64,000 bases of DNA from Chloroflexota bacterium (GTDB taxonomy: Bacteria > Chloroflexota > Ktedonobacteria > Ktedonobacterales > JADMIN01). A program made the translations under genes and the position numbers. The notes beneath the pieces are model-generated. The model did not search any database. It was not told the origin of the DNA and saw only the letters and a program-made list of their open reading frames with translations. Positions within the stretch are counted from its first letter, which is position 1; each line of letters starts with the position of its first letter. Positions 31,234-34,124 of the stretch are shown here, piece by piece. The stretch is from contig JAJPKE010000045.1 of assembly GCA_021323855.1 (NCBI GenBank), forward strand, positions 558,001 through 622,000. The letters run 5' to 3'.

Positions 31234-32379
31234 ATGCGAGAAGTGGTGATCGTCGAGGCCGTGCGCACGCCCATAGGCCGGCGCAACGGCGCGCTCAAAG
31301 ACACGCATCCGGTGGTGCTTGGCGCGATGGCGCTGCGCGAGCTGGTGAAACGCGCAGGCATTGAGCCAGCAATCGTTGAGGATGTCGTGATGGGCTGCGT
31401 CAGCCAGGTGGGCGAGCAGGGCGTCAACATTGCGCGCAACGCCGTCTTGCAGGCTGGTTTCCCCATCGAGGTGCCGGCGACGACGGTGGACCGCCAGTGC
31501 GGTTCCGGCCAGCAGGGGTTGCACTTCGCTGCCAATCTCATCCAGGCTGGTGTCTGCGATGTCACGATTGCTGGTGGCGTGGAGAGCATGACACGCCTGC
31601 CTATCGGCTCCAACATTGCCACCGGCGGCCATCCCTTTCCGCCGTCGCTGCTGGAAGAATACCCAATGGTGCATCAGGGCATCTCCGCTGAGATGATTGC
31701 CGAGCAGTGGGGCATCTCCCGCGAAGAACTGGACGCCTTTGGGCTGCGCAGCCACCAACTTGCCGCCGCTGCCCAGGATGACGGCGCGTTCGACCGCGAA
31801 ATCGCGCCACTGGCGCTGGCAGATGGCACTATCTTTGCTCGTGATGAGGGCGTGCGTCGCGATACGACGCTGGAGAAGCTGGCGGGATTGCAGCCCGCCT
31901 TCAAGCCGGATGGACGCATCACCGCTGGCAGCAGCAGCCAGGTCAGCGACGGCGCGGCGGCGCTGCTGCTGACGACGCCGGAGAAAGCGGCGGAACTTGG
32001 ACTGCGGCCACGCGCCCGTATCGTCGCACAGAAAGTCGTCGGCGTGGACCCGGTGCTGATGCTGACTGGCCCCATCCCTTCCACCCGCGCGGTGCTGGCG
32101 AAGGCTGGTCTCGCACTCGATCAGATTGATCTCTTTGAGGTCAACGAAGCCTTTGCCTCGGTGGTGCTGGCGTGGGAGCGCGAACTGCATCCTGATATGG
32201 CGAAAGTCAATGTCAACGGCGGCGCCATCGCACTTGGCCATCCGCTCGGCTGCTCTGGCGCGCGGCTGATGGTGACGCTGCTGCATGCGCTGGAAGCGCG
32301 CGGTAGGCGCTACGGCTTGCAGACGATGTGCTGCGGCGGCGGGCTGGGCACGGCGACCATTATCGAGCGACTGGATTAG
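31234..32379 (+). CDS. Thiolase (acetyl-CoA acetyltransferase type)
   Basis: The 381-residue enzyme catalyses reversible condensation of two acyl-CoA molecules. It begins [20 protein letters not shown] and has the acyl-enzyme cysteine in [11 protein letters not shown] (Cys89). The VNEAFA motif, the catalytic His in [17 protein letters not shown] and the C-terminal [12 protein letters not shown] with the proton-shuttling Cys are all present, so it should be active. GAGAGG lies about 10 bases before the ATG. No other beta-oxidation, PHB or mevalonate gene is adjacent, so degradative and biosynthetic roles cannot be separated. Confidence 0.93.
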
Positions 32380-32570
32380 TCGCGTCGTTTGCTCGCTCGA
32401 CTTCCATCATCTCTACACAACAAACGGGGTCGCATCCTGCTCGTTCCGGGCGCTGCGGCCCCGGCCACTTCATCGTCACGATATCCCAATAAGTCATTCA
32501 CCTGCTAGCAAGTTGACATATCCTCGCATATTCGCCAGTACAGACGGTTCTTGGGGCGGCAAGGGAAGCA

Positions 32571-32579
32571 TGCTATACT
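32571..32579 (+). promoter_or_regulatory. Extended -10 promoter candidate
   Basis: TGCTATACT matches the extended -10 form TGnTATAAT with one change. A CTTGGG sequence lies about 17 bases upstream. A transcript from here would cover the hairpin-rich leader and the secreted-protein gene 400 bases downstream. Confidence 0.5.
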
Positions 32580-32710
32580 ATCCGCATTCGCCCAATCCAA
32601 TCAGTCACAAAGCGCCACGCGCGCCAAAACAGAGGCGTATTGTAGACAAGATATTGCTCTGTTGTTATCATCGGCGCGTTCACTCGTCCTATTTAGATAG
32701 GATCAGACTG

Positions 32711-32854
32711 GCATACTCCATTGTGTCCCATAATCCAGGCGGCACGGAGTATGCTAACGGGATCGTGCTACATCATACTGGGTTGATTGTCCAATCGGGG
32801 ATACCCGATGAGGCAATAGCAGGTGGGAACTCGTAAAGGCATGCCAACCTTTAC
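32711..32854 (+). ncRNA. Candidate structured RNA/leader with three perfect hairpins
   Basis: The 612-base gap 32380-32990 contains no convincing gene. Within it three exact hairpins follow each other: GCATACTCC/GGAGTATGC (32711-32719 with 32746-32754), ATCGGG-GATA-CCCGAT (32794-32809) and GTAAAGG-CATGCCAA-CCTTTAC (32833-32854). G-rich single strands lie between and after them (GCAGGTGGGAACT, GGGGCAGGTGAGAGGAGGG). An extended -10 lies 130 bases upstream and the next gene starts 137 bases downstream. The pattern suggests a riboswitch-like leader or a stand-alone RNA. It does not match the TPP, SAM, cobalamin, glycine, c-di-GMP-I, ydaO or guanidine-I cores that I can recall. Confidence 0.45.
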
Positions 32855-32990
32855 TGGGGCAGGTGAGAGGAGGGTCCAGTAGCACAGTAGAACCACGGAT
32901 GTAGTTTCTTCATTCCTCAATGGCTGATTGTTCGCATGTAGCTTCTACCAGGGCGCTCTCCTCATGTGAGCGTTCGCTAGGGAGACCACA

Positions 32991-34124
32991 GTGTCAAAGA
33001 AGACCATTCTCAAGATCGCCTTTTCCGCGATTGGCCTGGTGGCCGTCGCAGCAGTGGTGTTCGCCTTCTTCCCGCGCTCAGGCGCAAGCGCTGCACCCGC
33101 CACGTTCAAGCCGAAGTTCGCCATGACGACAGACTATCCGCTTGATGCGGGAGTCAGCCCAACCACGGCTGGCGTTGCTACCATCCCGTTCTGGAAGTCA
33201 TCCTTCACCAGTGGCGGCGTAACGTATCCGTTCCAGATGGTGGGCACCGACCCGCGCGCTGGCTCGGCCACGACGGTCGTTCCGGTGAATCTGGTGCCGA
33301 TCAAGTTCGTCTTCTCCAACGGCGCCGTCCTCGACGGCACCAGCAAGGTTCGCCGCACAGAAGATTCGCCGATCTTCCATCCGTATCAGTTCACTGACAA
33401 CGGCACGAATGTCGGCTACACCCAGTATAACGACGCCATTCAGCGCGCCGAGTTCTGGAACTATGTCTCGACCGTCAGCCCGAACTACCATGTCAAACTG
33501 GGTCAGCCGACCGTCTGGCCGACGATCACGATCAACGTCCCGCACAACTGGGGCGAAGAAGTCGTCACCACGACCAATGTGCGCCTGGGCCTGATTGATG
33601 CCGGTTGGTTCGGCAAGCAGTTGAATGCGCTGATTGATCAGTATCACTACGATCCGACGCAGTTCCTGCTCTTCGGCACGTACAATATCGTGCTGTACAT
33701 TGGCTACCAGAACTACAACAACTGCTGTATCATCGGCTACCACACGGCCCGCCATGTCAAGACCAGCACTGGCGGCAAGGGCATCCTGACCTATGCCTTC
33801 GCCTCCTATGTGGATCCGGGCATCTTCACGGCCTCCGGCATTCAGGACATTCACCCGCTGAGCCATGAGATGGCTGAGTGGATGAACGACCCGTTCGTTG
33901 ACAATCCTGCGCCGAACTGGTATTCACCAATTGCGCCGCAGTACGGCTGCTCGAACATCCTCGAAGTCGGTGACCCGCTGGTTGGTGTAGCCATCAACGT
34001 TGGGGTCTGGCATCCGCAGGATGAGGCGTTCTTCTCCTGGTTCGCGCGCCAGTCGCCTTCACTTGGCGTCAATGGCCAGTACACCTACCTCGGCACGTTC
34101 AGCACCTACTCGCCAAGCTGCTAG
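32991..34124 (+). CDS. Secreted or membrane-anchored protein of unknown function
   Basis: The 377-residue protein starts at GTG with GGGAG 7 bases upstream. It has an N-terminal signal or anchor: positive MSKKTILK followed by IAFSAIGLVAVAAVVFAFF and an Ala-rich stretch with a possible cleavage site near GASAAPA. The rest is extracytoplasmic and rich in Tyr, Asn, Thr and Pro. A motif HPLSHEMAEWMNDPF resembles the HExxE/HExxH helix of zincins, but the second His is Glu, so peptidase activity is not claimed. Paired Cys (NNCC, YGC, final SC) suggest disulfides. It is preceded by the hairpin-rich leader and followed by a perfect terminator, so it is its own transcription unit. Confidence 0.8.
   Translation: MSKKTILKIAFSAIGLVAVAAVVFAFFPRSGASAAPATFKPKFAMTTDYPLDAGVSPTTAGVATIPFWKSSFTSGGVTYPFQMVGTDPRAGSATTVVPVNLVPIKFVFSNGAVLDGTSKVRRTEDSPIFHPYQFTDNGTNVGYTQYNDAIQRAEFWNYVSTVSPNYHVKLGQPTVWPTITINVPHNWGEEVVTTTNVRLGLIDAGWFGKQLNALIDQYHYDPTQFLLFGTYNIVLYIGYQNYNNCCIIGYHTARHVKTSTGGKGILTYAFASYVDPGIFTASGIQDIHPLSHEMAEWMNDPFVDNPAPNWYSPIAPQYGCSNILEVGDPLVGVAINVGVWHPQDEAFFSWFARQSPSLGVNGQYTYLGTFSTYSPSC

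Follow-up and report, generated by a model that had tools for sequence, protein, structure and literature searches.

The 5′ region of a gene for a secreted protein in this Ktedonobacterales genome carries an unusual concentration of RNA hairpins. Within the window, that is, the whole 64-kb stretch of DNA that was analysed, the hairpin-rich stretch probably serves as leader to the secreted-protein gene that starts at 32991. The best reading of its sequence, to which a probability of roughly 0.55 can be given, is that of a lineage-specific long 5′ untranslated region, whose hairpins would constitutively set mRNA lifetime and translation rate. Specifically, transcription would start from the extended -10 element at 32571, or from a second promoter near 32660, and the hairpins would then fix the stability and/or translation of the secreted-protein mRNA without responding to a signal; a constitutive effect of this kind appears to be the least demanding reading. 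The earlier proposal, made from the sequence-only reading, that the secreted-protein gene has a non-coding leader rich in hairpins is supported by structure statistics and by a promoter motif found upstream of homologous genes. As in structured 5′ leaders of bacterial mRNAs, a promoter-like site precedes the region and its structure exceeds chance. The likeness to such leaders extends to the position between promoter and start codon, to the lack of detected coding content and to stable hairpins on the sense strand; the leader of the window differs in having a sequence and a fold that are unique among the collections searched.

Table 1. Positions of the leader elements and of the flanking genes, in window coordinates
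Feature	Position	Strand	Basis or remark
Thiolase gene	31234-32379		Upstream neighbour of the gap
Extended -10 element TGCTATACT	32571-32579	+	Predicted transcript start ~32586; putative function
Long imperfect hairpin, GCGCGCC/GGCGCGT and AACAGAG/CTCTGTT	32619-32679	+	Partition-function fold
Second promoter-like site, TAGACA-17-TATCAT, TG before the -10	32643-32671	+	Consensus scan, 10/12
Small hairpin, stem TCCTAT/ATAGGA	32683-32706	+	Fold
Long hairpin, 9-bp stem with inner 7-bp stem	32709-32756	+	
Exact 9-bp stem	32711-32719/32746-32754		Loop 26
Multi-branch domain, closing helix GTGCTAC/GTAGCAC (32765-32771/32879-32885)	32765-32885	+	
Hairpin, two 6-bp stems with 2x2 internal loop, including the exact 6-bp stem	32786-32817	+	
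Exact 6-bp stem	32794-32799/32804-32809		Loop 4
Exact 7-bp stem, GTAAAGG/CCTTTAC	32833-32839/32848-32854	+	Loop 8
Ribosome-binding site AGGGAG of the secreted-protein gene	32979-32984	+	Sequence
Secreted-protein gene, 377 aa, signal-peptide-like N terminus	32991-34124	+	GTG start

The gap between the thiolase stop codon and the GTG start (32380-32990) measures 611 bases, one fewer than the 612 first given. No open frame tested in it matches Pfam, and a protein-coding reading of the gap was dropped on this ground.

That the gap is unusually hairpin-rich is a sound observation. The three exact hairpins of 9, 6 and 7 bp described earlier lie where they had been placed, covering 144 bases, with the GTG codon 137 bases further downstream. 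When the gap was shuffled 2000 times with its dinucleotides preserved, not once did three non-overlapping perfect hairpins (≥9, ≥7 and ≥6 bp) fall inside 144 bases. Since these thresholds were taken from the trio already seen, the figure flatters the result; the fairer measure is the stem count, with 7 perfect stems of at least 6 bp in the gap, a number reached by 1.5% of dinucleotide shuffles. In addition, a 6-bp hairpin at 32687-32702, a 7-bp hairpin at 32628-32663, the closing helix of the multi-branch domain and extensions that make the first two hairpins of the trio much longer had been overlooked. Compared with shuffles, the strongest element is found at 32707-32758 (folding z -6.6), followed by 32784-32819 (z -4.2), whereas the region of the third hairpin with its G-rich strands (32820-32890) reaches just z -0.65; the signal is thus carried by the first two hairpins and not by the third. 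The long imperfect hairpin is modest on its own (z -1.8 for 32612-32682), and the whole of 32678-32990 gives z -2.5. In a scan of the window by 150-base tiles, 32626-32775 on the plus strand comes second in structure among the 1704 (z -5.8, a rough value, with 20 shuffles per tile). Its opposite strand gives z -0.4, the structure being confined to the plus strand. A point against the leader reading is that comparable z-scores occur in other tiles of the window, several of which span gene ends.

Further downstream in the leader, alternative folds compete. In the isolated domain, the closing helix of the multi-branch structure forms with a pair probability of 0.98-0.99, and it gives way to other pairings in longer folds. 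The exact 7-bp hairpin competes with other pairings, being present in folds that extend to 33050 and absent from the isolated domain.

The extended -10 element postulated upstream of the hairpins is indeed there, and TGNTATACT occurs just once in the 64-kb window, both strands counted, at 32571. Of 18 homologues of the secreted-protein gene, 9 carry the hexamer TATACT no more than 400 bases upstream, nine regions that are partly related (L009 with L012, L019 with L027) and so not fully independent; in 500 shuffle runs the count among the 18 averaged 1.45 and never exceeded 5, and on the reverse strand the motif appears upstream of the homologues once. It is found 49-260 bases from the start codons, which were picked by eye, and this gene family therefore seems often to have long leaders. 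The motif speaks for a transcript beginning at ~32586, which would run for about 400 bases up to the gene. The second promoter-like site would provide an alternative start at ~32678 and a leader of about 310 bases. The first bases from this site, TATCATCGGCGCGTTCA, match the leader of one G007 paralogue at 13 of 17 positions and no other, a weak resemblance.

A different possibility, to be entertained tentatively, is that the leader is a lineage-restricted cis switch (a riboswitch, a thermometer or a protein-bound leader), in which 32765-32885 would sense some input and rearrange the pairing near the ribosome-binding site. The closed multi-branch domain and the alternative folds around the third hairpin would suit such a device, and the ribosome-binding site is paired upstream in several folds of the leader, with similar pairing predicted in the leaders of Ktedonobacter and of G007. 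Its predicted accessibility (0.42, rank 16 among 32 genes of the window) is however ordinary, which counts against the constitutive reading too, and the data consequently do not single out translational switching. A sequestered ribosome-binding site as a family trait was likewise considered and set aside: the folds of the three kinds of leader hint at it, but the 32-gene comparison is not distinctive. Moreover, no family of Rfam 15 matches the leader (best E 1.0), and the gathering cut-off is passed in the whole window by one tRNA only.

The leaders of homologous genes bear on both readings. Some of them are moderately structured (z -2.0 to -3.0 in L018, L009, L019 and L012), in favour of the constitutive leader, and others are short or unstructured (L005, L006, L007 and L020), against it. 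Those of Ktedonobacter (L009, L012) and G007 (L019, L027) resemble the leader of the window in having TATACT followed by 170-250 moderately structured bases; these same leaders, together with L011, differ from it in showing no sequence similarity, and its covariance models find no match in the homologous leaders tested. The leader sequence itself is thus not conserved. In favour of a cis switch, leaders of about 250 bases ahead of the same gene family are ~91% identical across three Ktedonobacter species (L009, L011, L012), yet just one of their 67 predicted pairs has changed on both sides, and for the leader of the window no homologue was found from which covariation could be read. For the secretion-linked riboswitch put forward earlier, too, no homologous leader turned up in any collection searched. 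No Rfam match was obtained in the Ktedonobacter leaders scanned (L009, L012). As a separate observation, the same two loci carry very long, near-perfect hairpins (~25 bp) at about 300-400 bases ahead of the gene, which may serve as terminators for the gene before it.

The search for relatives of the leader was extended well beyond the homologous genes. By BLAST, no credible relative was found in its own genome (neither a second copy nor a diverged repeat), among 46 further genomes of its class, across the phylum (400 genomes, its own among them), or in plasmids, phages and E. coli, and a viral collection was also without a match. Two covariance models built from this single sequence (R1, 32760-32890; R2, 32612-32760) gave nothing credible in the class, nor did R1 in the phylum; single-sequence models add little sensitivity over BLAST, so that distant relatives could escape, and the genus of the window is represented by one genome among those searched. 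Two candidates were taken as chance: a 36-base match of 89% identity in G028, which lies antisense within a trpC-like frame (nhmmer E 0.41), and a match of the R2 model in G010 (E 0.053), which is 72% GC, has a bias of 9.7 against 18.5 bits and overlaps open frames. Among all the collections searched, the leader is unique to this genome in sequence and in predicted fold.

Another reading takes the inverted repeats as what is left of a decayed mobile element or gene, folding by descent and with no present function. The single copy without relatives is consistent with such an origin, as is the synteny, since in relatives the secreted-protein gene does not come after the orthologous thiolase. Against it, the genome contains neither another copy nor a diverged repeat, the frames tested have no Pfam match, and phages, plasmids and the viral collection gave no match; on balance a decayed element seems unlikely. 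Distinctly improbable is the more ambitious reading of a new cis-regulatory RNA class restricted to one Ktedonobacterales genus, in which 32765-32885 and 32709-32756 would together sense a signal and control the secreted protein.

Equally improbable is a separate, trans-acting small RNA encoded between the thiolase and the secreted-protein gene. The region does have promoter-like sites of its own and a compact structured block, but 32300-33050, leader included, contains no terminator-like site, and the promoter motif also stands before other members of the secreted-protein gene family, tying it to the gene. A transcription attenuator was also discarded, the leader having no terminator hairpin with a T run.

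As for an orphan omega-RNA (HEARO) of IscB, which had been offered as one concrete hypothesis, it is refuted as far as the Rfam model is sensitive: searched at E up to 10 with relaxed filters, 32200-33200 gives no RF02033 match, and a genome-wide search at E up to 1 returns a single copy, on another contig (C42:46880-47127, 122.6 bits). The genome thus does hold a true HEARO, a structured RNA like the leader, and this copy (L106) adjoins an intact iscB with RRXRR and HNH domains; the leader, in contrast, is flanked by the thiolase and the secreted-protein gene with no iscB adjoining, a neighbour that HEARO usually has although stand-alone copies do not need it, and it has no visible similarity to the C42 copy. 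A literature search by title gave nothing on point for HEARO, IscB or structured RNA in Ktedonobacteria.

At this stage, a lineage-specific structured leader without relatives holds modest interest, and there is no reason to keep the omega-RNA idea. If the leader does regulate, it would open a way into post-transcriptional control in Ktedonobacterales and likewise into an uncharacterised family of secreted proteins of soil Chloroflexota and Acidobacteriota. Homologues of the 377-aa protein are present in 13 of the 47 genomes of the order (own genome included), as well as in Acidobacteriota, Eremiobacterota and others, its nearest relatives including Ktedonobacter, Dictyobacter and Tengunoibacter. 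The protein belongs to no Pfam or NCBIfam family. Its fold is predicted with confidence (pLDDT 85), and no solved structure resembles the prediction at E < 0.001, the best being a peptidase zymogen at E 0.03. Members of the family (L005-L033, L065-L104) share the conserved motifs HE[VIM][AS]EWxND and YGC[SN][NS]xLEVG. In G007 (contig C30, L062), three paralogues are neighbours, each with TATACT 100-193 bases upstream.
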